Assembly: GCA_016342355.1 (NCBI GenBank)
Contig: JAEINP010000026.1
Location: 1 to 64,000, forward strand
Source: Desulfatibacillum sp.
GTDB taxonomy: Bacteria > Desulfobacterota > Desulfobacteria > Desulfobacterales > Desulfatibacillaceae
Direction of reading: 5' to 3'
Length of the DNA: 64,000 nucleotides
A program made the position numbers and the translations under genes. The notes beneath the pieces are model-generated. The model was not told the DNA's origin. It did no database searches and worked only from the letters and a program-made list of their open reading frames with translations. Below, piece after piece: positions 44,842 through 59,491 of the stretch. Each line of letters starts with the position of its first letter. The stretch's first letter is position 1.

Positions 44842-45117
44842 ATGGCTTTATGGCGAGTCCCGCTTGACGCAGAACAGATTGACGTCACCCTTGGTATTGT
44901 TCACATCATTAAGGAACGGTGCAAGGGGTGCGGCTACTGCATTGAATTCTGCCCCAAGGAGGTCCTGGAATTTTCCAAGGAGTTCAATCAGAAAGGGTAT
45001 CATCCTCCCCGGGTGAAAAAGCCTGACGACTGTGTGAACTGCCACTATTGCGAAATCATCTGTCCTGAATTTGCCATCTACTCTATTGAAGCAGAGCAGG
45101 AACAGGCCAACCCATAA
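44842..45117 (+). CDS. korD: 2-oxoacid:ferredoxin oxidoreductase delta subunit
   Basis: A 91-residue two-cluster ferredoxin with CKGCGYCIEFCPKEV (about 33-47) and CVNCHYCEIICP (about 64-75), the arrangement of KorD. It shuttles electrons between the catalytic KorAB dimer and free ferredoxin. AAGGA precedes the ATG. It is the first gene of the operon, 13 bases before korA. Confidence 0.92.
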   Translation: MALWRVPLDAEQIDVTLGIVHIIKERCKGCGYCIEFCPKEVLEFSKEFNQKGYHPPRVKKPDDCVNCHYCEIICPEFAIYSIEAEQEQANP

Positions 45118-45130
45118 AGGATAAATACCC

Positions 45131-46282
45131 ATGAGACCCGCGGTTTTAACAGGGGAACATTATATGACCGGTGACGTGGCCTGCGCGGAAGGGGCCCTGG
45201 CTGCCGGATGCTTGTTTTTTGGGGGGTACCCCATTACCCCGGCCACGGAAGTGGCCGAACGCATGGCCCACCGCCTTCCCGAAATAGGCGGCACCTATAT
45301 TCAGATGGAAGACGAAATCGCCGCCATGGCCTCCATTATCGGGGCTTCGTGCGCAGGGGCCAAGAGCATGACTTCCACCTCGGGGCCCGGCTTTTCCCTC
45401 ATGATGGAAAACCTGGGCCTTGCCGTGATCACCGAAACCCCCTGCGTGGTGGTGAACGTGCAGCGGGCCGGGCCTTCCACCGGACTGCCCACCCAAGGCG
45501 CCCAGGGAGATATGATGCAGGCCCGGTGGGGCTCTCACGGGGACTACGAAATCATCGCCATGTCTCCGGCCTCGGCCCAGGAAATTTTTTACCTGACCAT
45601 CGAAGCCTTTAACCTGGCGGAAAAATACCGAACTCCGGTCCTCATCATGACTGATGAAGTCATCGGTCACATGAGCGAACGGGTGATCATACCCAAGGCC
45701 CGGGAGATCAAGACCGTGGAGCGTGTCAAGGCCAAAGGCCGCAAGGACCGGTTTCGCCCTTACGCAGCCGGGGACCTGGGGGTTCCGCCCATGGCCAATG
45801 CCGGGGATGGATACAAGATCCATGTGACCGGTTTGACCCATGACGAAATGGGCTATCCGGCCATGACCGTGGAAGCCCAGTACGCCATGATGGATCGGCT
45901 CGTGGGTAAAATTCGCAACAATGTCAAGGACATCATCCGTTATGAGGAATTCATGACCGAGGATGCCGACTTTATTATTATCAGCTACGGAGTATCGGCC
46001 CGCACAGGCTGGGCCGCCGTGGAAGAGGCCCGCGCCCGGGGCATGAAAGTGGGCATGCTCAGGCTCATCACGGTCTGGCCTTTTGCAGAGGACAAAATCC
46101 GGGAACTGGCCGCCAGGGTCAAGGGCATGGTCACTGTGGAGATCAACCTGGGCCAGGTGCACCTGGAAGTGGAACGTTGCGTGGCAGGCCGGGTTCCCGT
46201 GCGCCTTGTGGGGCATCCCGGCGGCACGCTCATTTCTCCGGATACGGTAATCCAAACCATCAAGCAGGAGTTTGGGGTATGA
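45131..46282 (+). CDS. korA: 2-oxoacid:ferredoxin oxidoreductase alpha subunit
   Basis: A 383-residue subunit with GGYPITPATEVAE near residue 30, MEDEIAAMASIIGAS and a STSGPGFSLMMENLG segment followed by RAGPSTGLPT, matching 2-oxoglutarate:ferredoxin oxidoreductase KorA. The catalytic pocket for the 2-oxoacid lies here and with KorB. The 2-oxoglutarate assignment is from family resemblance; other 2-oxoacids are possible. Its stop overlaps the korB start. Confidence 0.92.
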   Translation: MRPAVLTGEHYMTGDVACAEGALAAGCLFFGGYPITPATEVAERMAHRLPEIGGTYIQMEDEIAAMASIIGASCAGAKSMTSTSGPGFSLMMENLGLAVITETPCVVVNVQRAGPSTGLPTQGAQGDMMQARWGSHGDYEIIAMSPASAQEIFYLTIEAFNLAEKYRTPVLIMTDEVIGHMSERVIIPKAREIKTVERVKAKGRKDRFRPYAAGDLGVPPMANAGDGYKIHVTGLTHDEMGYPAMTVEAQYAMMDRLVGKIRNNVKDIIRYEEFMTEDADFIIISYGVSARTGWAAVEEARARGMKVGMLRLITVWPFAEDKIRELAARVKGMVTVEINLGQVHLEVERCVAGRVPVRLVGHPGGTLISPDTVIQTIKQEFGV

Positions 46283-47145
46283 CTATAGCCCAGGAAGCAA
46301 TTAGGGAGGCCACCAGCCATCCTTTGGACGATCTTTTGCGCACCGAGCGCATCCCGCATATCTGGTGCCCGGGGTGCGGTATCGGCACCGCCTTTTCCTC
46401 ATGTCTCATCGCCATGAAGGAAAGCGGTATAGACCTGGAAAAAACCGTCATGGTTTCGGGCATCGGCTGCTCAGGCCGCGGGGCTGGCTATGTGAAGCTG
46501 GATTCGTACCACACCACCCATGGCAGGGCCATCCCCTTCGCCACTGGGATGAAGCTGGCCAACACCGATCTGAACGTGGTGGTCTTTTCCGGCGACGGAG
46601 ACCTATTCGCCATCGGCGGCAACCATTTCATCCATGCAGCCCGCCGCAATGTGGATATTACCGTGGTTTGCGTGAATAATTTCAACTACGGCATGACCGG
46701 CGGGCAGGCGGCGGCCACCACGCCCCATCTGGCCAAAACCACCACCACCCCGTTGGGTAATCCCGAGTCGCCCTTTAACTTGCCCCTTTTGGCCTATGCG
46801 GCCGGGGCAAGCTATGTGGCAAGGTGGACCACCCTCCATGCCCGGGATCTCACCACCGCTATTCAGGAAGCCCTGGCCAATCCCGGTTTTTCCTTTGTGG
46901 AGGTTCTGGCGCCTTGCCCAATTAACTATGGCAGACGAAACAAGGAAAAACCCTTGGATACCCTGCGCCTGTTCCAGGATAAAAGCATTATAAAAAACAA
47001 TGCCCATCCCACGGAACTGGATGTGGATTGGGAAAAGGGCGTGGTGTTGGGAACCTTTGTTAACAATCCCAGGCCTTGCTCCACGGACATGTACGATAAA
47101 ACTTGCAGGCTTGAAGAAAAACCCGAAAAGAAAACAGCCGCCTGA
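46279..47145 (+). CDS. korB: 2-oxoacid:ferredoxin oxidoreductase beta subunit (thiamine pyrophosphate)
   Basis: A 288-residue TPP subunit. The cluster-binding cysteines start at WCPGCG (C30, C33) with GIGCSGR further on, and the TPP/Mg motif is GDGD (105-108) followed by VCVNNFNYGMTGGQ. The start (46279) overlaps the korA stop by four bases; the frame runs upstream only as a shadow. Catalyses CoA-dependent oxidative decarboxylation of a 2-oxoacid, or the reverse with reduced ferredoxin. Confidence 0.92.
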   Translation: MTIAQEAIREATSHPLDDLLRTERIPHIWCPGCGIGTAFSSCLIAMKESGIDLEKTVMVSGIGCSGRGAGYVKLDSYHTTHGRAIPFATGMKLANTDLNVVVFSGDGDLFAIGGNHFIHAARRNVDITVVCVNNFNYGMTGGQAAATTPHLAKTTTTPLGNPESPFNLPLLAYAAGASYVARWTTLHARDLTTAIQEALANPGFSFVEVLAPCPINYGRRNKEKPLDTLRLFQDKSIIKNNAHPTELDVDWEKGVVLGTFVNNPRPCSTDMYDKTCRLEEKPEKKTAA

Positions 47146-47156
47146 TAGGACGAAAC

Positions 47157-47738
47157 ATGCAGAAATTAGAAGTGATTATCACGGGATTCGGAGGCCAGGG
47201 AATCGTCCTTGCGGGCAGGATTCTGGGCCAGGCCGCCTCCCTGGGAGATCACAAGGAAAGCACCCTGATCCAGTCGTACGGCCCCGAATCCCGGGGCGGC
47301 GCCTGCAGTGCCCAGGTGATCATATCGGACGGGACCATCAATTATCCCTATGTGCGCCAGCCGGATATCCTGGCGGCTATGTCCCAGGCGGGTTTTGATA
47401 AATTCGTGAATGATGTCAGACCTGAGGGATTCATTCTCATTGATCAGGACATGGTCAAGGTCAAAGGTCTGGAAAGGGACTATTTTGCCGTTCCTTCCAC
47501 TCGCATGGCCGAGGAACTGGGCCGCAAGATGATGGCCAACATCATCATGATCGGTTTTATCACCGCCGTGACCCAATCCACCTCCTTGGAGGCCACACGC
47601 CAGACTGTGTCTGCGTCCGTTCCCAAAGGCACGGAAGAAATGAACATCAAAGCCTTCAACAAGGGCTATGATTACGGCCTGTCCCTTTTGAAAGCCAGGG
47701 ACAAGAAAGCCTCAGGACAAGCAGGAGCCCTCGCATGA
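47157..47738 (+). CDS. korC: 2-oxoacid:ferredoxin oxidoreductase gamma subunit
   Basis: A 193-residue KorC/PorG-type subunit beginning LEVIITGFGGQGIVLAGRIL, with the SYGPESRGGACSAQVIIS segment typical of the gamma chain. AGGA six bases before the ATG. Its stop overlaps the next start (ATGA), linking the oxidoreductase translationally to the large iron-sulfur flavoprotein. Confidence 0.92.
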   Translation: MQKLEVIITGFGGQGIVLAGRILGQAASLGDHKESTLIQSYGPESRGGACSAQVIISDGTINYPYVRQPDILAAMSQAGFDKFVNDVRPEGFILIDQDMVKVKGLERDYFAVPSTRMAEELGRKMMANIIMIGFITAVTQSTSLEATRQTVSASVPKGTEEMNIKAFNKGYDYGLSLLKARDKKASGQAGALA

Positions 47739-50700
47739 AAAGAGCCAAAGACCGGCTTCACCGGGTCATTGTCCTGGGAGCCACCCCTTCGGGGATATCA
47801 GCCGCAAATAAACTGGGAGAACTGGGCATTCCCGTCACCCTGGTGGATTCGGACCCGGATCTTCATGAAAAACTTTCCAGGGACCAATGGCGCATGGATT
47901 CGGGCGTGCCCTTTTCCTACGCCCACCGCTCCGGCCTCATGCGCATCATGCGCAACCAGGCCATCAAATGCATCCTTCCAGGAGAAGTGACCGGCATAAA
48001 GCATACGGCCCAAGGCTTTGCCGTTAAGATCAATCATCTTCCCGAATACGTGGACCCTGCGCGTTGCACCTTGTGCGGCAAATGCGTGGAGGCGTGTCCC
48101 GTGACCTCCGCCGACGGCCATAGGCCCATTGTGTTTTCGGGGAACTGGAATCTTCCCGGCAGGCCGATCATTGACAAACGCCAAAAGCCCCTGTGCCAGG
48201 ATAGCTGCCCCCTGGGAGTGAACGCCCAGGGATACGTGGCCCTGGCAGGCGCCGGAAAGTTTTCTAAATCCCTGGATATGGTGCGCCGGGATAACGTGCT
48301 GCCCGGTATTTGCGGGCGGGTCTGCACCCATCCCTGCGAGGACGCATGTCGCCGGGGAGAGGTGGACGGTGCGGTGGCCATCCGCGATATCAAACGCTTT
48401 GTGGCGGACAATGGAAGCGCAACCATTCCAACCCGGGCCGAAAAGACCGGCAAAAAAGTCGCCGTTATAGGCTCGGGACCGGCAGGCATTGCCGCTGCCG
48501 CAGATTTTGCCAGACAGGGTGTGGAAGTCACGGTATTTGAAAAAGAAAAGCAAGTGGGCGGCCTGCTTAGATATGGCATCGGCCCTCATCGTTTGCCACG
48601 GAAAATCCTGGATCAGGACCTGGAATATGTCCGGGCTTTGGGCGTGGAATTCGTTACTGGCAAAGAGATTGATTTTGCGAAAGACTTGAAGGAACTCAGC
48701 CACGAATACGACGCCGTGCTTATCACCACGGGATCGTGGAAAGACAGGAAACTGGGCGCCAAAGGCGAAGATTGCCAGGGCGTGACCGGTTGTCTGGAGT
48801 TTTTGAACAGCCTGTATCGCGAAACCCTTTCGCCCTTGAAAAAAGGGGAAAAGGTGGCGGTGATAGGGGACGGCAATTCCGCCTTTGACGCAGCCAGGGC
48901 AGCCCGTCGCCTGGGTGCGGACGTGACCATTGTGTCGTGGTTCGCCAAGGATTCCATTCCTGCGGACGAGGAGGAAGTCCATGGCGCCGTTGCCGAGGGT
49001 ATCGCCATTGTGGACAAGGTGCGGGTGGTGGAGTTTGTTCAGGCGCAGGGCCGTTTTACAGGACTTGTATGCAAGCCCACGGTCCCGGGCATGGCGGATG
49101 CCAATGGCATATGTTGGCCTGTTTTGAAACAGGACGGGGAAACCAGGGAGTTTGCTTTTGACCGGGTAATAGTGGCAATCGGACAGTCCGGCCCGTTTTC
49201 GGAGGACAAAAAATCCGACCTGGAAATCACGGATTACGGATTTATAAAAATCTATGAGTCGGCCCAGACCAGCATTCCCGGAGTTTACGCCGCAGGAGAC
49301 GCGGTGACCGGTCCCACTACAGTGGTTCGGTCCATGGCTTCGGGCCGTGCTGTGGCGGATGTCATTTGTGAAAAACTTTTGGGGCATTCTTTTTTTGCCA
49401 AATCCGGCCGCCCTGTGGACAAGGATTTTTGCGCCATCCCGTCCGGCCTGGCCCATGTGAAAAGGGCGGTCATGCCCGAGGCTGATGCAAAGGATCGAGT
49501 CAAATCCTTTGATGAAGTATCAAAAGGCCTGACGGAAGCTCAGGTGCTGAACGAGGCTTGCCGGTGTTTGCAATGCGGCGTGTGTTCCGAATGTTTGGAA
49601 TGCGTGGACGCGTGCGGCCCGGTGATTCACGCCATCAACCACAATGCGGCGGCCAAAGAAGACAAGGAACATGCCGGGGTGGTGATTATTGCCGACCCGG
49701 ATATGGCGCCGGGAGTCCGGGGCGAGGATGTGATCCGGGCTTACGGACCGCCTTCAGCCAAAACCAATGTTTATAATATGATCACCCGCGGGTATGCGGC
49801 GGCAGGCAGGGCCATGACCTTTTTAGCCCGCACCTCCCAAAGGCCCAGAGGCTATGGAGTCCCTTTTAATGCTCCGGACCCGGGCTTGGCCCCGTCCGTG
49901 CGCACCGGGGTTTTTGTCTGCCGGTGTAATAGCTCCCTGGGCTGGCATGCCGACCTGGACGCCTATGTGGAAAGCCTTAATCAACGGCCCGAGGTGGTTT
50001 ATACCGAAGTTTTGGACTCCGCCTGCATTCCCGAGGGAAGCGCCCATATTGTGCGGACTGTCCGGGAAAAGGGGATCACCCGGGTCCTGCTGTCCTCCTG
50101 CGTATGCTGTCCCCTGGATTTTGTATGCACCGCCTGCACGGATCAGCGCAGTCGTTTGAAGGACGCCTTATTCAAGGGCACGGGAATCAGCCGTGCCATG
50201 GTGGAAACCTGCAACCTTCGGGGTGAGGTCCTGCCTTTGTTCAAGGCCGGTAAGGATGTCGTCCAGAAGGCCTTTGAAGGACTTCTGGAACGTTCCCTGC
50301 AAAGGGCCGCCAAACTCAAGCCCCTACCCACGCCTCCCCGCAATTATAACTTCACCACCGCGGTGGTGGGCCAGTCCGAATCTGCCATTAACAGCGCACT
50401 GACCCTGGCGGAAGCCGGGCTGGAAGTGCTTTTAATGGGCGGACCGTCCAGGCCTTTGGAAAAACTCCAGGATCATCCGAATATCCATAATTTCGCAGGG
50501 TCTTCGGTCCAGGCCATTTCCGGCAACCTGGGGAACTTCCGGGTTCTTGTCAGGACCGAGGGAAGCACCCAGGCCTTGAACGTGGGTACCGTCATACTGG
50601 GACAGCAGGCGTTGCGCCAGGTTCCCTATCTTTCCCAGGAGGGCATGCAAAGGCGGGAAGTCATAGCCACCATGCAAAAAATGGGAGAACCCGGGGTGCC

Positions 50701-51079
50701 TTTCCTGTTTCCCGGCAGCACGTCCATTGCCGGGCTTTTTACGTCCAGTCCTCCGGGGATCAATGTGTCTGACAGGAAAAAAGGCGCGGCAACCGCTGTG
50801 CTTGCCGCTTCGGTAATGCCCCGTGGGCCAAGGCAAAACAAGGGATATACATCCTATGTGGACGCCCTGAGGTGCCGGGGATGCGGAAGCTGTGTGGCGG
50901 TATGCCCTTACCAGGCCATCGGTTTCAAGCAAAACGAAGTGGGCGGCTGGTATGCTTCCGTGGACGAGGCCTTGTGCAAAGGCTGCGGAAACTGTATTTC
51001 CGTGTGCCCCAACAATGCCGCAGACTCCCCTTACCGGAACCAGAAATACCTGGAACAAATGTTGGAGGAAGTCCTGTAG
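47735..51079 (+). CDS. Large GltD/HdrA-like iron-sulfur flavoprotein
   Basis: A 1114-residue soluble redox protein. It contains an N-terminal Rossmann loop (GATPSGISAANKLG), a ferredoxin motif CTLCGKCVEACP (111-122), and a GltD-type cysteine region (about 154-205) with FAD loop GSGPAGIAAAADFARQG (246-262). An NAD(P)-binding loop GDGNSAFDAARAARRLG follows (about 370-390), then a cysteine cluster CRCLQCGVCSECLECVDACG (about 608-628), an HdrA-like stretch (about 720-860) and two C-terminal clusters (CRGCGSCVAVCP, CKGCGNCISVCP). It combines the NADPH-handling flavin module of glutamate synthase with HdrA-type segments, so it may be the NAD(P)H entry or exit site of the Hdr complex. It is coupled to korC. 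Confidence 0.85.
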   Translation: MKRAKDRLHRVIVLGATPSGISAANKLGELGIPVTLVDSDPDLHEKLSRDQWRMDSGVPFSYAHRSGLMRIMRNQAIKCILPGEVTGIKHTAQGFAVKINHLPEYVDPARCTLCGKCVEACPVTSADGHRPIVFSGNWNLPGRPIIDKRQKPLCQDSCPLGVNAQGYVALAGAGKFSKSLDMVRRDNVLPGICGRVCTHPCEDACRRGEVDGAVAIRDIKRFVADNGSATIPTRAEKTGKKVAVIGSGPAGIAAAADFARQGVEVTVFEKEKQVGGLLRYGIGPHRLPRKILDQDLEYVRALGVEFVTGKEIDFAKDLKELSHEYDAVLITTGSWKDRKLGAKGEDCQGVTGCLEFLNSLYRETLSPLKKGEKVAVIGDGNSAFDAARAARRLGADVTIVSWFAKDSIPADEEEVHGAVAEGIAIVDKVRVVEFVQAQGRFTGLVCKPTVPGMADANGICWPVLKQDGETREFAFDRVIVAIGQSGPFSEDKKSDLEITDYGFIKIYESAQTSIPGVYAAGDAVTGPTTVVRSMASGRAVADVICEKLLGHSFFAKSGRPVDKDFCAIPSGLAHVKRAVMPEADAKDRVKSFDEVSKGLTEAQVLNEACRCLQCGVCSECLECVDACGPVIHAINHNAAAKEDKEHAGVVIIADPDMAPGVRGEDVIRAYGPPSAKTNVYNMITRGYAAAGRAMTFLARTSQRPRGYGVPFNAPDPGLAPSVRTGVFVCRCNSSLGWHADLDAYVESLNQRPEVVYTEVLDSACIPEGSAHIVRTVREKGITRVLLSSCVCCPLDFVCTACTDQRSRLKDALFKGTGISRAMVETCNLRGEVLPLFKAGKDVVQKAFEGLLERSLQRAAKLKPLPTPPRNYNFTTAVVGQSESAINSALTLAEAGLEVLLMGGPSRPLEKLQDHPNIHNFAGSSVQAISGNLGNFRVLVRTEGSTQALNVGTVILGQQALRQVPYLSQEGMQRREVIATMQKMGEPGVPFLFPGSTSIAGLFTSSPPGINVSDRKKGAATAVLAASVMPRGPRQNKGYTSYVDALRCRGCGSCVAVCPYQAIGFKQNEVGGWYASVDEALCKGCGNCISVCPNNAADSPYRNQKYLEQMLEEVL

Positions 51080-51181: not shown

Positions 51182-52783
51182 ATGGGAAACGATCAGGCAA
51201 ACAAAAATCTTAAGATAGTATTGTTCCTTTGTACATGGGGGCCGCATGCGGCCTTTCAACAACTTCAGGACAAGGATTGCCGTATTCCGGCCCAGGTCAA
51301 GATGGTGCGCATCCCTTGTTCCGGCAGGGTGAGCAAGGCCCTTTTGTTCAAGCCTTTTGAAATGGGCGCGGACGGCGTGGTCCTGGTGGGTTGCGGTTCC
51401 GGCGTTTGCCGGTACGGGGTGGGGTCTATCACTGCGGAGAAAAACGTAGCCGATACCCGAAAGATCCTGGACCTTTTGGGGCTTAGTCGAAAACGCCTGC
51501 GTTTGGGCGCGTTTTCCCCGGAGGAACCCCAGGCTCTGTTGGATTTTCTCAATGGTTTTATTGAGGAAGTGGGCGCCATAGGAAAAAGCCCTGTGATCCG
51601 GCCCGTCAAGCCGGAAAAACACAACGACCACAGCCTGGCGATAAAGGAAATCATCCAAAAGCACGATGTGTATTCCTGCCAGGAGTGCGGCAAGTGCTCC
51701 TCTGCCTGTTCCCTGACCTTGGCGGGAAAGCAATATTCGCCCCGGGCTATCGCCAATGCAATTATAGGCGGCAAGGTGGACGATCCCCAAGTGCAAAAGG
51801 ACGTCTGGGCATGCCTTACCTGCGGTATTTGTTATGAAAGGTGTCCGTCGGCCGTGAATTTTCCCGAGTTCATCCGGGATGTGCGCGCCGTGATCAAGTC
51901 GGCCCAGGGTAATGGAAACGAAGCCCATGGAGGATTTTTCGGGTCCCTTTCCCGCACCATGACTTCCCCGGAAATCAAAGGGAACCATTGGAACTGGTTG
52001 CCGGAGGACATAAAAACCGACTCCTCCAGCAAGGTGCTTTTCTTTGGCGGCTGCGCTCCGTATTTTGATATTTTTTTCAAGAATCACCTGGCGCCCAGCA
52101 CCCTGGACAGCGTGTCTGACAGCCTGCGCTTAATGAATTTTTTCGATATCCATCCCCGGGTGCTGGACGATGAACGTTGTTGCGGCCACGATCTTTTGTG
52201 GACCGGAGACCGGGAGAATTTTCTCAAACTGGCGAAACTCAATGTGGACGCCATCAACCAGTCGGGAGCGGAGGAAGTGATTATTTCCTGTCCCGAGGGG
52301 TACCGGACCTTTGTGAAGGATTATCCTCAGGCGGGCTTGGACATGCAGTTCAAGGTCACCCATATCCACGAATTTCTGGAACGGGAAATTTCCAAAGGCT
52401 CGGTGGGATTCAAAAGCCTGGACCGGAAAATCACCTTCCAGGATTCGTGCAGGCTCAGCAGGCACATGGAGATGGCGGAACCGGCCAGGAAACTCCTTGC
52501 CAGGCTTTCGCCCCTGTCCTTTACGGAAATGACGGATTCGGGCGCAGGCGCCATATGTTGCGGCAATTGCGCGTGGAGCGGATGCGACTCCTTTTCCAAG
52601 GCTCTACAGGTCAAAAGGCTCCGGCAGGCACGGGAAACACAGGGCGATTTGCTGGTGACATCCTGCCCCAAGTGTCAGGTGCATTTGCGTTGCGCCATGA
52701 AGGACCCGTTTTTCGGAAAAGATTTGGAAATTGAAATGATGGATTTGACCAGCGTTATGGCAAAAACCATTTGTTGGGAATAA
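51182..52783 (+). CDS. MvhD-HdrC-HdrB-like fusion protein
   Basis: A 533-residue fusion. Residues 1-130 resemble the hydrogenase iron-sulfur subunit MvhD, but the CNWC start reads CTWG and the GCHxGDCHY motif reads GCGSGVCRY, so its [2Fe-2S] site is altered. Residues about 164-215 hold two HdrC-type clusters (CQECGKCSSACS, CLTCGICYERCP). Residues about 280-500 contain two CCG domains as in HdrB/HdrD (DDERCCGHD and ISCPEGY; GAICCGNC and TSCPKC), expected to bind noncubane clusters and reduce a disulfide or similar acceptor. It lies directly upstream of the selenoprotein HdrA, so the two form the core of a heterodisulfide-reductase-like complex. Confidence 0.88.
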   Translation: MGNDQANKNLKIVLFLCTWGPHAAFQQLQDKDCRIPAQVKMVRIPCSGRVSKALLFKPFEMGADGVVLVGCGSGVCRYGVGSITAEKNVADTRKILDLLGLSRKRLRLGAFSPEEPQALLDFLNGFIEEVGAIGKSPVIRPVKPEKHNDHSLAIKEIIQKHDVYSCQECGKCSSACSLTLAGKQYSPRAIANAIIGGKVDDPQVQKDVWACLTCGICYERCPSAVNFPEFIRDVRAVIKSAQGNGNEAHGGFFGSLSRTMTSPEIKGNHWNWLPEDIKTDSSSKVLFFGGCAPYFDIFFKNHLAPSTLDSVSDSLRLMNFFDIHPRVLDDERCCGHDLLWTGDRENFLKLAKLNVDAINQSGAEEVIISCPEGYRTFVKDYPQAGLDMQFKVTHIHEFLEREISKGSVGFKSLDRKITFQDSCRLSRHMEMAEPARKLLARLSPLSFTEMTDSGAGAICCGNCAWSGCDSFSKALQVKRLRQARETQGDLLVTSCPKCQVHLRCAMKDPFFGKDLEIEMMDLTSVMAKTICWE

Positions 52784-52796
52784 GGACCGTACTATT

Positions 52797-55241
52797 ATGG
52801 AAGCACACAGGCTTGTAACGCCAGCCCAACCAGGCCAGGAAGCCCGCATCGGCGTGTATGTTTGCAAATGCGGCGCAAATATTGGCAAGGTGGTGGACTG
52901 CGAAAAAGTGGCTGGCAGCGTCGCTGGCATAGAAGGCGTGGTGGTGGCCAAGGATGTGGGTTATGCCTGCTCCGAGCCCGGCCAGCAGCAGATCAAGGAT
53001 GATATAGTCAACCTGAACCTGGACCGTATTGTGGTGGCCTCCTGCTCGCCCAGGCTCCACGAACCCACTTTCAGGCAAATGCTGGTGTCGGCAGGTTTGA
53101 ATCCTTATCTGCTGGAAATGGCCAATCTCCGGGAGCAATGCTCCTGGGTGCATATGCATGAGCCCGAGGCAGCCACGGCCAAAGCCATCGACCTGGTAAA
53201 AATGTCCATTTCCCGGGTGCGCCTTCTGGCCCCCCTGAAAGAGGAAACCATCCCCCTTACCAAAAGGACCCTGGTCCTGGGCGGCGGGGTGGCGGGCATT
53301 CAGGCGGCCCTGGATTTGGCGGATAACGGATTTGACGTGGTGCTTGTGGAAAAACAGCCCTCCATCGGAGGGGTCATGGCCCAGTTGGACAAGACTTTTC
53401 CAACCATGGACTGCTCCATTTGAATTCTGGGGCCTAAAATGACGGATGTCGGTCGGCATCCCCGAATCACGCTGTACACCATGAGTGAAGTTGTTGACGT
53501 AAAAGGTTACGTGGGCAACTTTGAAGTCAATATCCTTAAAAAAGCCCGTTATGTCGTGGAAGGCGAATGCACGGCATGCGGAGAATGCTCCAAGGTCTGT
53601 CCTGTGGTGCGGCCCGACGAGTTCAACCTGGGCCTGTCGTCCCGGAAAGCCATTTACTCGCCGTTCCCGCAGGCGGTGCCGTCCTCTTACGTGATCAACA
53701 TCAACGAATGCCTGGGGGATAATCCCTCGGTGTGCGCCAAGTGCGTCCAGGCCTGTGAAAAGCAGTGCATCAATTTTCATATGTCGGACGAGCAGATTAC
53801 GGAAAAAGTGGGCTCCATTGTGGTGGCCACGGGTCTTTCCCCCTACGATCCCACAGAGCATGACGAATACGGGTACACCCGCTTTCAGAATGTGTTGACC
53901 AGCCTGGAGTTCGAGCGTCTGGTCAATGCGGGCGGCCCGTCCCAAGGCGAGGTGATCCGCCCCACGGATAGGAAGATTCCAAAGTCCGTGGGATTTATCC
54001 AGTGCGTGGGTTCCCGTAGCGCCAGAAAAGGTGCGGCCTATTGCTCCAATGTCTGCTGCATGAACACCGTCAAGTCCACCCTCATGCTCAAGGAGCATTA
54101 CCCGGACATTGACGTTAAGGTCTTCTATATTGACATTCGCGCCTTTGGAAAAGGCTTCGAGGATCTGTACCTCCGCTCCCGCAGGGCGGGCGCCCAGTAC
54201 ATACGGGGCCTGCCGGGCAGCGTGGAGGAAAACCCGGACGGCGGCCTGTCCGTAGCCGTGGAAAACACCGCCACCGGCAAGCTGGAAATTCACGACCTGG
54301 ACATGCTGGTCCTGGCCGTGGGCCTGGAGCCTGCTCCCAGCACCCAGCGGCTTCAGGAAATGTTGGGGCTCCAGTTGACCCCGGACGGATTCTACCTGGA
54401 AGCCCATCCCAAGCTCCAGCCCGTGGACGCAGCCACCCGGGGCGTGTTTTACGCCGGTTGCGCCGAGGGACCCAAGGATATCAAGGAATCCGTGACCCAG
54501 GCCAGCGCCGCCGCAGCCCGGGCCATCCGCCTTATGCATAAAGGCGAGATCACCACCGACCCCATCACCAGCGAGGTGATCACCGAGCACTGCAAGGCCT
54601 GCGGCAGATGCGCCGAGGTTTGCCCGTACAACGCCATTACCGTGGATCCCAAAAAGAAGATTCCGGCCGTGGTCAATACGGCGGCTTGCGCCGGGTGCGG
54701 CACCTGCGGGGCCGAATGCCCCTTTGGCGCCATCGTCATGAATCATTACACGGACCAGCAGATCACCAACCAGGTGGACACCATGTTGTCCGAGGACCCC
54801 AAGGCCAAGATCCTGGTTTTCGCCTGTAACTGGTGCTCTTACGCCGGGGCGGACTATGCCGGGGTTTCCCGGTTGCAGTATCCTGCCAATGCGCGCCTGA
54901 TACGCACCATGTGCTCAGGCCGGGTGGACGAGGAGTTCGTGTGGAGAGGCTTTGAACTGGGCGCGCCCGCCATCCTGGTTTCGGGCTGCCATATTGGCGA
55001 CTGCCATTATATCGACGCCAATCACTGGACTGAAAAACGCATCCATAAGATGTGGAAAAAGATGGACAAGCTGGGCATCCGAAAGGAACGCCTCCAACTG
55101 GAATGGATCAGCGCGGCTGAGGGCATCCGTTTCGCCCAGGTCATGCAGCGGATGGATGATTTGCGCCAGAGCGTGACCCAGGAGGAAATCTACGAGACTG
55201 TGGAAGCCCTGAAAAAACGCAAGAAAAAGAAAAATATCTAA
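52797..55241 (+). CDS. hdrA: Selenocysteine-containing HdrA-MvhD fusion
   Basis: One 814-residue protein read through an in-frame TGA (53421-53423, codon 209). The frame continues without shift: 208 residues before, then I-L-G-P-K and the second 600-residue part. HdrA normally has Cys at this spot (CSIC-x-L-x-PKM); here it reads CSI-U-ILGPKM. HdrA features: FAD loop GGGVAGIQAALDLAD (about 161-175), CTACGECSKVCP (about 258-269), CVGSRS with YCSNVCCM (about 402-425), two C-terminal ferredoxin clusters (about 599-645), then a complete MvhD domain (about 670-790; CNWCSYAGAD, MCSGRVD, GCHIGDCHY). Expected role: the flavin-based electron-bifurcating centre. AAGGA lies upstream of the ATG. Automated annotation would split it at 53423 and 53439. 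Confidence 0.9.
53421..53461 (+). promoter_or_regulatory. UGA selenocysteine codon with bacterial SECIS hairpin
   Basis: After UGA at 53421-53423 a seven-pair stem (53444-53450 with 53455-53461, one G-U pair) closes the tetraloop GGUC (53451-53454). The UGA-to-loop distance of 27 bases is within the range for bacterial SECIS elements, and a G at the loop start is the recognised feature for SelB. It lies within the coding sequence, as is normal in bacteria. Confidence 0.85.
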
Positions 55242-55269
55242 GACCCAAAGAAAACAATCAAGCATCCCC

Positions 55270-55303
55270 AAAGGCCCTGGCAACCCCAGGGCCTTTGTTT
55301 TTT
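55270..55303 (+). terminator. Rho-independent terminator of the korDABC-hdr operon
   Basis: Eleven-pair stem (55270-55280 with 55286-55296), five-base loop, then GTTTTTT. It ends the 10-kb operon. Confidence 0.92.
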
Positions 55304-56528: not shown

Positions 56529-57347
56529 TCAGTCTCGGGTGTCGTGGTCGCCGTGGGTATGAATATGCCCGTCGTGAGCGTGATCCGGTCCGTCTTCATG
56601 GTCATGGGTTTCGTGGCCGTTATGCCTGTGGGGAGCGTCTCCCAATGGATGGATATGGGTGTGGGTGTGGAGGGCCGAGGAGTCGCCGTAGTAGAGGATT
56701 TTCCCCTTTTGCATGCCGAAAAAATCCCGGGTGGTCCGGGCCAGGAAGTCGTACTCATGAGAGACGATCAAAAAGGATTTGTCCAGGTCGTTGAGAATCT
56801 GGATGATGTGCTCCCGGGTTTCCATGTCGAGACCGGTGGTGGGCTCGTCCAGGAGCAGCACTTCCGGGTCCATGGCCAGGACCGTGGCGATGGAGACCAG
56901 TTTTTTTTCGCCGCCGGATAGTTTGTAGGAAATCCGTTTTTCAAAGCCCTTGAGGTCTAAGGCCTCCAGGGTATTCATGGCGATATCCCGGGCTTCCTTG
57001 GGCGATTTTCCCAGATTCAGCGGCCCGAAAGCCACGTCTTCCAGCACGGTGGGCGAAAACAACTGATCGTCGGCATTCTGGAACACAAAGCCCAGTTTGG
57101 GCCGGATAGCCTTGAAATCCTTTTCCGACTCCATTTTTTCGCCAAGGATGTGTATGGTTCCCGCCGTAGGGACCAGCAGCCCCATCAACAGATGGAGCAG
57201 GGTGGTTTTTCCGCTTCCGTTATGGCCGATGAGTCCTGCCTTTTGGCCGTGATGGAGGGTGAAGGAAAAATTTTCCAACACGGTTTTCCCGCCCGGATAA
57301 CTGTAGGAAATATCCTTGATTTCAAATATGTGGGAGTGTGATTCCAT
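56529..57347 (-). CDS. nikO: Nickel/cobalt ECF transporter ATPase with His-rich tail
   Basis: A 272-residue ATPase of the CbiO/NikO family: Walker A GHNGSGKTT (41-49), signature LSGGEKK, Walker B VLLLDEPTTGLD. Beyond the normal end (about residue 225), a 45-residue tail rich in histidine (HTHTHIHPLG, HRHNGHETHDHEDGPDHAHD) is likely to bind or buffer the metal. It energises the NikQ/NikM importer and is last in the gene order NikK-M-L-Q-O. Confidence 0.9.
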   Translation of the reverse strand: MESHSHIFEIKDISYSYPGGKTVLENFSFTLHHGQKAGLIGHNGSGKTTLLHLLMGLLVPTAGTIHILGEKMESEKDFKAIRPKLGFVFQNADDQLFSPTVLEDVAFGPLNLGKSPKEARDIAMNTLEALDLKGFEKRISYKLSGGEKKLVSIATVLAMDPEVLLLDEPTTGLDMETREHIIQILNDLDKSFLIVSHEYDFLARTTRDFFGMQKGKILYYGDSSALHTHTHIHPLGDAPHRHNGHETHDHEDGPDHAHDGHIHTHGDHDTRD

Positions 57348-57406
57348 TGCTCCAGCCTGCCAGGGTTAGGCCTGAAAAATCAGGCGCTTGTTAACAGGCC
57401 ATTGTC

Positions 57407-58159
57407 CTACAATGTCCATTGCCAGATTGCCAGGAAAAAAATCAACGCTCCAAGAAAACCGGCCCAGGCAGCGTCCCTGGAGTTAAAACGCATTTCATCC
57501 AGGCAATGGAATTTGCCGGAAAACCCCCGGCATACCATGGCCTGATGCACCCGCTCCCCCCGGTCGGCGGCCCGCACCATGAGCATGCCCACCAGATAGG
57601 CGTAGGTCCGGTAGGTGTGGAGGTTGGTTCCCGGGGAAAAACACCGCACCTTGGCGGCTCGAACAAGCTGGGCCATTTCAGCCTCCAGTACAAAGATGTA
57701 TCGGTAGGTCAGGAGCAACAGCGCCACCAGTTTGGTGGGCATTTTCAGGCGGTTCATGGCGTGGCCCAAGGTGGCGACAGGCATGGTGGAAAAAAAGGCG
57801 ATGGACCACAACACAATGGCGTTGGACTTGAGGGTGATGATACCGCACAGGATCACGCCTTCCCGGGCCACTGTAAACGGCCCCAGGTTAAACCAGGCAG
57901 GGCCGTTATAGGTGAGGGGCAGCACCACCCACAAAAACACCACCAACCCGTTTACCAAGGCCAGGCGTTTGAGTACGGCCACTGGGTTCAGGCGAGCCAG
58001 CAAGGCCATGAGGACCGCCAGGGCAAGGGCCGCCCCCAGCACGTCGAATCGGTCAGCCAGTGCCGCCACCAGGGCGAAAAGCGTTCCCGCAATCACCTTA
58101 AGGCGGGGGTCCAGCCGGTGTATTACAGACTGGCCGAATGCAAAGGATTCCGTTATCAA
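57407..58159 (-). CDS. nikQ: ECF transporter transmembrane protein (CbiQ/NikQ)
   Basis: A 250-residue T-component with about five to six membrane segments and the coupling helices ending in AADRGERVHQAMVCRGFSG, the family's R-rich signature. It links the ATPase NikO to the substrate unit NikM. Its start overlaps the stop of the NikL gene by four bases. Confidence 0.9.
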   Translation of the reverse strand: MITESFAFGQSVIHRLDPRLKVIAGTLFALVAALADRFDVLGAALALAVLMALLARLNPVAVLKRLALVNGLVVFLWVVLPLTYNGPAWFNLGPFTVAREGVILCGIITLKSNAIVLWSIAFFSTMPVATLGHAMNRLKMPTKLVALLLLTYRYIFVLEAEMAQLVRAAKVRCFSPGTNLHTYRTYAYLVGMLMVRAADRGERVHQAMVCRGFSGKFHCLDEMRFNSRDAAWAGFLGALIFFLAIWQWTL

Positions 58160-58794
58160 ACCTCTTCCAACTCCTTGATCTTCCGGCGATAATGCAGGTA
58201 CGCCGCCAAACCCGCCAATCCGAAAATATACCCGATTCCCCCCAGGATGTCGGAAACCTTGGGCTTATCCTCCTGGGCGTCCACCAGCATGCGGGTGATG
58301 GGTTTCAGTTTCTTGTCCAGGGCTTTTTCCATGGCAATCTGGATTTCATGGGCGGTGGCGGTTTGCATCACGTGGGCCGGAGCGGATTGGACAGTCTCCG
58401 TAACCGCGGGCTGTTCAGCTTTGGCGGGTTCTACCGCCGGGGCTTCTGCCGCCGCTCCCACTGGTGTGTCTCCCATGGCTTCCATAATTTCGTCCAGGGT
58501 GACAGTCCAGGTGTCAGCATGGCCCATGGTGGCGTCCAGGGAAATAACCAAGGCGGTCTTTTGGGGGACTTTGAAGGAATACTCACCTTCCTCGTTGGTC
58601 ATGCCTTCCACGAGAAGTTTTCCGCTTTGGTCAAAAATATAGATCTTGCCGTTCCGGACCATCTTGCCGCCGGAAAATTTGCTTTCCGTATAAACCGTAT
58701 CGCCTTCCATCCAGGCGAAAATATTCACCTTGTGAGCCAGGGATGGGCCAGCCAGAAGAAAGAAAACGAGAAGGCTTGCCAGCAATTTTTTCAT
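58156..58794 (-). CDS. nikL: NikL-type accessory subunit
   Basis: A 212-residue protein with a cleavable signal (AHKVNIFAW right after cleavage near GPSLA-H), an Ig/carboxypeptidase-regulatory-like beta domain (about 20-100), a proline/alanine-rich linker (about 108-150) and a C-terminal membrane helix (about 180-202). This is the pattern of NikL in nickel ECF transporters; it replaces CbiN/NikN. The N-terminal histidines after cleavage may serve metal capture. Confidence 0.85.
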   Translation of the reverse strand: MKKLLASLLVFFLLAGPSLAHKVNIFAWMEGDTVYTESKFSGGKMVRNGKIYIFDQSGKLLVEGMTNEEGEYSFKVPQKTALVISLDATMGHADTWTVTLDEIMEAMGDTPVGAAAEAPAVEPAKAEQPAVTETVQSAPAHVMQTATAHEIQIAMEKALDKKLKPITRMLVDAQEDKPKVSDILGGIGYIFGLAGLAAYLHYRRKIKELEEV

Positions 58795-58804
58795 GATATC
58801 ACCT

Positions 58805-59410
58805 TTATTTGCTCAATCCGGGAAGCATGCCCGGCTGGACTTTTCGTAAGAATTCGATGCACATAACGGAAAAAATTCCTTCCACTATCATAATGACAAT
58901 GTGCGCACCCAGCACAGCAGCGGCGGCTTCGAAGAAATTTTCCTCGGTAAAATAGAGGGCCAAAGCCACTATAATACCGGAAAGGAATACGGAAAAAAAT
59001 CCGCAGGCAAAGGCGCCGGCCATGCCCATGGGGCCGCCCTTCGCCACCACCTTGCCCAATGTAAGATAGCAAACCACCGCTGGAGCGGCCATGATGACCG
59101 TGTTCACCCCCAATGTGGTGATGCCTCCGAATTGAAACAATATGGCCTGGAGGATGAGAGCCACTGCAATGGCGGGAAAAGCCGCCCACCCCAGCAGCAG
59201 CCCAAGGATTCCGTTCAAAATCAGGTGGGCGCTGGACAGACCAATGGGTACATGGACCAGGGAGGCCACAAAAAAACCGGCGGACAACACAGCAGCTCGG
59301 GGGATTTTATCAAAATCCAGTTTTTGCAGCCCATAGGCGGTTCCCGCCAGGGCAAAGACCGCGCCGGAAACCAGGACAGGCCCGGATAGTACTCCTTCGG
59401 AAATATGCAT
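58805..59410 (-). CDS. nikM: Nickel/cobalt ECF substrate-capture protein (CbiM/NikM)
   Basis: About 201 residues with the functional N-terminus MHISEGVLSGP, where the initiator Met-His pair binds the metal; this and the GAGG ribosome site argue for the ATG at 59410, not the upstream one at 59467. It has about six to seven membrane segments and LSSAHLILNGILGLLLG, characteristic of CbiM. With NikL, NikQ and NikO it forms a metal importer; nickel is favoured over cobalt because NikK/NikL are present. Confidence 0.92.
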   Translation of the reverse strand: MHISEGVLSGPVLVSGAVFALAGTAYGLQKLDFDKIPRAAVLSAGFFVASLVHVPIGLSSAHLILNGILGLLLGWAAFPAIAVALILQAILFQFGGITTLGVNTVIMAAPAVVCYLTLGKVVAKGGPMGMAGAFACGFFSVFLSGIIVALALYFTEENFFEAAAAVLGAHIVIMIVEGIFSVMCIEFLRKVQPGMLPGLSK

Positions 59411-59491
59411 GCGTCCTCTTTTCGTGGTTAGGCACAGGAGGGTTGTGTACCCTCCCGCGCCTTTCAATGCAATCCAAAAGTCCTTAAATTC

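Follow-up and report, generated by a model that had tools for sequence, protein, structure and literature searches.

The window analysed here, i.e., the whole stretch of DNA under study, comprised 64,000 nucleotides of Desulfatibacillum sp. (GCA_016342355.1, contig JAEINP010000026.1, positions 1-64,000, forward strand), from a genome of 5,262,955 bases in 142 contigs. The gene of main concern, hdrA2, closes a cluster of seven genes. The genes and features of the locus were as follows.

44842-45117, plus strand: delta subunit of a 2-oxoacid oxidoreductase, ferredoxin type (69 bits with NF042987 OGOR_delta, short of its cut-off, 125)
45131-46282, plus strand: 2-oxoacid:ferredoxin oxidoreductase alpha subunit (579 bits with NF006412, exceeding its cut-off, 411)
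46279-47145, plus strand: 2-oxoacid:ferredoxin oxidoreductase beta subunit with a provisional start (235 bits with NF007207, short of its cut-off, 364; searched as 46270-47145)
47157-47738, plus strand: 2-oxoacid:ferredoxin oxidoreductase gamma subunit (200 bits with NF006323, short of its cut-off, 235)
47735-51079, plus strand: GltD-HdrA fusion (HdrL / type III HdrA-like), 1114 aa (Pyr_redox_2 at 240-537, Fer4)
51182-52783, plus strand: MvhD-HdrC-HdrB fusion, 533 aa (PF02662 at 12-134, Fer4 domains, CCG domain in two stretches)
52797-55241, plus strand: hdrA2, 814 aa, an HdrA-MvhD fusion with a predicted selenocysteine (translated with one UGA read through; NF040770, PF02662)
53421-53423, plus strand: in-frame TGA, predicted selenocysteine 209, motif CSIU of the CxxU type (conserved in relatives, aligned with Cys)
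53444-53461, plus strand: predicted bacterial SECIS hairpin, 7-bp stem 53444-53450/53455-53461 and GGUC loop 53451-53454 (pairing and co-variation)
55269-55297, plus strand: terminator-like hairpin 3' of hdrA2, with a stem of 12 pairs and a run of T after it

Translation of 52797-55241 gave 814 residues with a sole interruption, the TGA at codon 209, so an earlier sequence-only reading was right that this codon breaks an otherwise continuous HdrA frame and that both halves lie in the same frame. ORF calling with table 11 ended the gene at 53423 and restarted it at ATG 53439, producing two ORFs in one frame (52797-53423 and 53439-55241), which is the split annotation that had been foreseen. In profile searches the whole protein scored 1210 bits with NF040770 (cut-off 1100; match over residues 17-797), and a PF02662 FlpD/MvhD domain was placed at C-terminal residues 672-788 (E 2e-44). 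Solved homologues aligned over residues 14-665 and 669-790. Judged by these domain matches, the gene product is of the HdrA2 type, i.e., HdrA with a C-terminal MvhD, and the proposed HdrA-MvhD fusion held. A scan for terminator-like sites gave 25, with 15.6 expected from shuffles, and the hairpin at 55269-55297 had the most pairs of them all. Further downstream, on the minus strand, four ORFs (56529-57347, 57407-58159, 58156-58794, and 58805-59467, together spanning 56529-59467) resemble, from reading alone, an ABC-type system for cobalt/nickel uptake with an ATPase, transmembrane proteins, and a CbiM-like protein.

The genes upstream of hdrA2 run in the same direction and are closely packed; the beta gene overlaps the alpha gene by 4 nt, and the gamma gene overlaps the GltD-HdrA gene by 4 nt. 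Since three of the four oxidoreductase subunits scored below curated cut-offs, the 2-oxoacid was left unspecified. No hydrogenase catalytic subunit was found among the profiled genes between 44842 and 55241, all of which were assigned to 2-oxoacid oxidoreductase or Hdr/MvhD. The GltD-HdrA protein reached 434 bits with NF009410, missing the cut-off of 516, and its HdrA model stretches were also below cut-off. It possesses the HdrA N-terminal domain, and the segment corresponding to Cys197/Sec was gapped in the alignment with HdrA2. The MvhD-HdrC-HdrB protein is, by its domains and its position, a probable electron-transfer partner of HdrA2.

Relatives of hdrA2 were collected in a comparison set of 88 loci. 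Named genomes gave at least 584 pattern matches, of which the 80 best were taken; the remaining eight loci come from further genomes of the same family. Among these listed matches and same-family loci, the MvhD-HdrC-HdrB gene lay beside hdrA2 in 81 of 87. The full upstream flank was available in 43 loci of the same set, 41 with TGA and two with TGT at the codon in question. With each gene called from its best tblastn hit at E <= 1e-15, all seven genes were present, in order and on one strand, in 40 of the 41 TGA loci, and the remaining one had six genes, its available flank beginning inside the alpha gene. At the two TGT loci only the hdrA2 gene was found and not the rest of the cluster. Both kinds occur in Desulfobulbus rhabdoformis: L074, within the cluster, has TGA, and L124, which lies elsewhere, has TGT. 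In L124 (1210-8634 and 8968-11406), the genes upstream of HdrA2 look by reading like glycine cleavage and lipoate genes instead of the 2-oxoacid oxidoreductase cluster.

The TGA stands in the context FPTMDCSI-U-ILGPK, where the alignment with C197 of HdrA in PDB 5odc (chain 5odc_A) is free of gaps. Cysteine occupies the same position in 8rvu, 8rvv, and 7bkb, while 9sfi_A has a non-standard residue X there, which we infer to be selenocysteine. The claim that the TGA falls on a conserved cysteine of the family was thereby borne out, by the solved HdrA proteins as well as by cysteine homologues among the relatives. Within the comparison set (best 80 of at least 584 matches plus eight same-family loci), 87 loci covered the codon, which was TGA in 85 and TGT in two; across the 78 nt used for the comparison, two of the 87 duplicated other loci. 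Genomes of the same family other than our own contributed seven copies that reach the codon, all with TGA. In 247 sampled genomes of the phylum, with the best few candidates scored in each, there were 36 matches at E <= 1e-270 in 35 genomes, our own included; 28 of these matches had a TGA inside and eight had no stop. One of the sampled genomes carries, at 0.32 Mbp, an HdrA2 with 76% identity and the same TGA, hairpin, and seven-gene cluster. Among 28 newly fetched loci from the phylum (L139-L166), some of which may come from the same organisms as the 88-locus set, the codon was TGA in 25 and TGT or TGC in three (L164-L166). The latter three proteins were 59-60% identical to the window protein, and the two TGT copies L124 and L125 68-69%. 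Six loci had a second in-frame stop, which raised the possibility of a second selenocysteine in the MvhD domain of some relatives; this was rejected, as in each of the six the stop lies at the C-terminus.

The five codons following the TGA encode ILGPK in 86 of 86 TGA rows (matches listed and same-family loci, the window included), in 50 different nucleotide versions, which indicates that the frame is translated through the TGA. The comparison with a congener (G001) gave 772 identical positions of 815 in the protein, stops counted. Synonymous differences outnumbered non-synonymous ones both in the 208 codons before the TGA (58 versus 15) and in the 581 codons after it (159 versus 24), a pattern that speaks for purifying selection on both sides.

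Bacterial SECIS elements are hairpins that follow shortly after the UGA and carry a G in the apical loop. The stem in hdrA2 is GGAUGUC/GGCAUCC with one G-U pair, and begins 20 nt from the TGA, with 27 nt from the TGA to the loop; this spacing falls within the usual range of bacterial SECIS. The 7-bp stem with a GGUC loop 27 nt downstream, as described in the sequence-only reading, was thus recovered in full. Among the 86 TGA rows (listed and same-family, window included), seven pairs could form in 81 and six in five, and the loop was GGTC in all except one, which had GGGC. At the sixth pair, the 84 distinct TGA rows from the same matches and same-family loci divided into U-A (40), C-G (36), and U-G (8), and C-A did not occur (Fisher p 2.9e-16, relatedness ignored). 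The change on the 5' side exchanges Val and Ala, and the one on the 3' side is silent in Arg, so the coupling is not explained by the protein. Gly codon 10 was GGT in 83 of these 84 listed or same-family rows, although among Gly codons elsewhere in the counted genes GGT is used least (514 of 3084). In 76 aligned TGA sequences 99.1% of cells were paired, versus 23-58% when the partners were slid by one to three columns. The covariation score, the cells paired, and the cells changed on both sides were each reached by none of 500 shuffles; pairs with a double change (reached by 144 of 500) and pair types (500 of 500) were not exceptional. The co-variation is mostly located at one stem pair, four of the seven pairs being invariant. 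RNAalifold recovered six of the seven pairs unaided.

Folding energies gave a different picture. The hairpin alone (26 nt, -9.9 kcal/mol, z -0.94) was not unusually stable, and in its 55-nt context the RNA folded otherwise in silico (z -0.05). Since stem and loop are conserved but the energy is unremarkable, the case for the SECIS is built on the comparative evidence. Modelling of the element, as proposed beforehand, returned a conserved stem with one compensatory pair, and an energy that was uninformative or even contrary. No Rfam family was found in the 64-kb window at gathering thresholds. A covariance model built from these sequences, that of the window included, located the window site in the genome with E 1.5e-15, and the next matches in the genome were two other HdrA UGA sites (E 0.17 and 0.2). 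In the cysteine copies the hairpin retained six pairs (L124), four (L125 and L164), five (L165), or three (L166), and the loops of these five were GGAC, GGGC, or GGCC. One cysteine copy with six pairs, and three HdrA stretches with TGA and five pairs in our own genome, imply that the number of pairs alone does not separate selenocysteine from cysteine copies.

The genome was searched for the selenocysteine machinery, and all four genes named in the earlier reading were present above curated cut-offs: selA (614 bits, cut-off 268), selB (392 bits, cut-off 242), selD (357 bits, cut-off 125), and selC, the tRNA-Sec (76 bits, gathering threshold 47). Further in-frame TGA codons were observed in the same genome. 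The selD gene (G000:C40:14689-15612, L047) has one in the setting GUAAK, and its product is thus probably a selenoprotein as well; a UxxK motif is listed for SelD in the available text of PMC13188914. Three HdrA-like stretches, G000:C43:7894-9180 (L004), G000:C6:144723-145157 (L017), and G000:C43:12464-12895 (L018), have TGA at the same site as hdrA2, in the context DCAMU or DCTMU with ISPKLVEVGRH one residue on. Their hairpins are found in the same place and are weaker, with five of seven pairs. L018 is short, contains also a TAA within the matched stretch, and is perhaps a fragment. An MvhD-like gene adjoining HdrA-like genes (G000:C6:149129-149497, L024) has a TGA in a CxxU-type setting, CNQU, and by this motif probably encodes a Sec-MvhD.

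Three other explanations of the TGA were considered. The UGA could be a true stop, with the downstream ORF of 600 residues reinitiated at ATG 53439 and HdrA2 existing as a split protein, which would agree with the two ORFs of table 11, with a GGGG shortly 5' of this ATG, and with the ordinary stability of the hairpin. However, untranslated DNA would not keep the ILGPK that the 15 nt between UGA and ATG encode in every one of the 86 listed and same-family TGA rows and in 50 versions. In addition, the hairpin lies 3' of ATG 53439, where it is conserved and co-varies, and it is weaker or altered in the five cysteine copies checked; a split would presumably also cut the FAD-binding fold. We therefore regard a split protein as very improbable. 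A misread TGC or TGT in sequencing or assembly, or a recent nonsense mutation in a pseudogene, has in its favour nothing beyond the fact that a single-base error is possible a priori. The same TGA recurs in 85 of the 87 covering loci among the listed and same-family matches, 28 of 36 matches in the phylum sample have a TGA inside, 25 of 28 newly fetched loci were verified as TGA at this codon, and both flanks are under purifying selection. Given the same codon in the relatives, a sequencing error is very unlikely, and error and pseudogene taken together have a close to negligible probability.

Readthrough with insertion of cysteine or tryptophan, through reassignment of the stop codon or near-cognate suppression, must be weighed as well, since the evidence concerns the conservation of the frame and not the identity of the residue. 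Against it stand the complete set of selA, selB, selC, and selD, a SECIS-type hairpin after the UGA at the customary spacing, the TGA codons at the same place in HdrA-like stretches of this genome together with the UxxK TGA of selD, and the use of TGT or TGC, with altered hairpins, in the five cysteine copies. We hold this to be, if anything, still less probable than a split protein, and more probable than error or pseudogenization. The in-frame TGA of hdrA2 is thus, by the comparative evidence, almost certainly read as selenocysteine. It is with high confidence that we propose hdrA2 to encode a bacterial HdrA2-MvhD in which SelB and tRNA-Sec, acting at the hairpin 53444-53461, would decode UGA 53421-53423 as selenocysteine.

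Selenocysteine-containing HdrA is an established family of bacterial selenoproteins, as far as the accessible parts of the literature go (PMC1794560, PMC5029168, PMC13188914). The HdrA family NF040770 is listed as a CxxU selenoprotein family. Sixteen Sec-HdrA were counted in bacteria, seven of them in Syntrophobacter fumaroxidans, and hdrA gene fusions are mentioned (PMC1794560); a later count gave 103 Sec-HdrA across 42 organisms (PMC5029168). The fusion with MvhD is described as HdrA2, type Ia (PMC6019823, PMC12054007), with homologues in Bacteria (PMC6019823), while the GltD-containing form is type III, and misreading of Sec as a stop is mentioned (PMC12054007). The closest case is Desulfococcus multivorans DSM 2059, in which a UGA upstream of a SECIS was reported in 2016 for an HdrA under two locus tags, dmul_C02770/80 (PMC5109826). 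From the neighbouring tags we infer that these are one gene, hdrA1. HdrA1 was detected there by proteomics, and the available text does not report detection of the Sec residue itself (PMC5109826). The UGA and the SECIS are common to this HdrA and to HdrA2 of the window, no substantive difference was seen in the text available, and the two are very probably orthologues.

Methanosarcina HdrA2 carries cysteine. The HdrA2 of Methanosarcina acetivorans (type Ia, NF040770; PMC6019823, PMC12054007) and its relatives share with the window the HdrA with C-terminal MvhD, while, as far as these sources describe it, the window differs in having HdrB and HdrC fused with an additional MvhD and in the GltD-HdrA partner. 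Syntrophobacter, Desulfotalea, and Sec-decoding methanogens, deltaproteobacteria thus included, have selenocysteine in HdrA as the window has, Syntrophobacter with several Sec-HdrA per genome (PMC1794560). In the parts of that paper available, the Sec-HdrA genes are placed in hdrA-frhD-frhG-frhA clusters, to which glpC is added in bacteria, whereas hdrA2 of the window lies beside 2-oxoacid oxidoreductase genes. For Desulfobacterium autotrophicum HRM2, the available text of PMC2702500 describes Sec-containing HdrA and HdrL (an HdrA-glutamate synthase fusion), mostly beside mvhD. The selenocysteine is there found in HdrA1, HdrA2, HdrL1, and HdrL3, whereas in the window it is predicted in the MvhD-fused HdrA and the GltD-HdrA is without the Sec/Cys segment. 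The Sec-HdrA2 of the window is an already known sort of selenoprotein, and a common one in those sulfate-reducing relatives that were compared. As the family, and very probably the orthologue, have been reported as selenoproteins before, the finding is sound but rather ordinary. The facts of the sequence-only reading and its interpretation as a selenoprotein stood, while the novelty it attached to them was overrated, family and MvhD fusion both having been reported. The conserved cluster of seven genes, which combines 2-oxoacid:ferredoxin oxidoreductase with a GltD-type HdrA, has been described less. A literature search over mostly open papers gave no match for a cluster of 2-oxoglutarate ferredoxin oxidoreductase, HdrA, and MvhD in sulfate reducers.

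In the HdrA of methanogens, Cys197 of one copy helps to bind the N-terminal [4Fe-4S] cluster in its counterpart, as a ligand in the ferredoxin branch, and tandem or fused HdrA show a complementary loss of Cys197 and the N-terminal domain, according to the available text of PMC9012536. By homology Sec209 is equivalent to Cys197, and thus should be a selenolate ligand of a cluster, presumably the N-terminal [4Fe-4S] cluster that a partner HdrA contributes to the ferredoxin branch. Since GltD-HdrA has the N-terminal domain without Cys197, HdrA2 may supply the ligand in trans. HdrA2 would form, together with MvhD-HdrCB and GltD-HdrA, a cytoplasmic complex and be its FAD-binding, electron-bifurcating or confurcating core. 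Within this complex ferredoxin, NAD(P)H, and a thiol/disulfide carrier could exchange electrons. The co-encoded 2-oxoacid oxidoreductase may provide the link to ferredoxin, the GltD domain the site for NAD(P)H, and the HdrB-like CCG sites that for thiol/disulfide. The full proposal is that the seven genes form one obligate bifurcating or confurcating complex, coupling 2-oxoacid:ferredoxin oxidoreductase to NAD(P)H and thiol/disulfide, with the HdrA2 selenolate ligating the N-terminal [4Fe-4S] of GltD-HdrA in trans. We put it forward tentatively and consider it rather unlikely in this complete form. The literature search, with the same restriction to mostly open papers, gave no match for selenocysteine of heterodisulfide reductase as an iron-sulfur cluster ligand, and the text available of PMC3087415 held nothing specific on selenocysteine in HdrA.

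What appears as a gene break in hdrA2 would be a complete selenoprotein, and this bears on how the energy metabolism of sulfate reducers is to be annotated correctly. Beyond the annotation, and the test offered by the Cys197 position, the biology is as expected. If the proposed ligation were true, it would represent a natural Sec-ligated iron-sulfur cluster at a subunit interface, tuning the ferredoxin branch. The tight conservation of selenocysteine (85 of 87 loci among the matches listed and the same-family genomes), together with the two cysteine homologues outside the cluster, makes a good natural test of why HdrA would need a selenolate at the position of Cys197, where methanogen HdrA has its iron-sulfur ligand.
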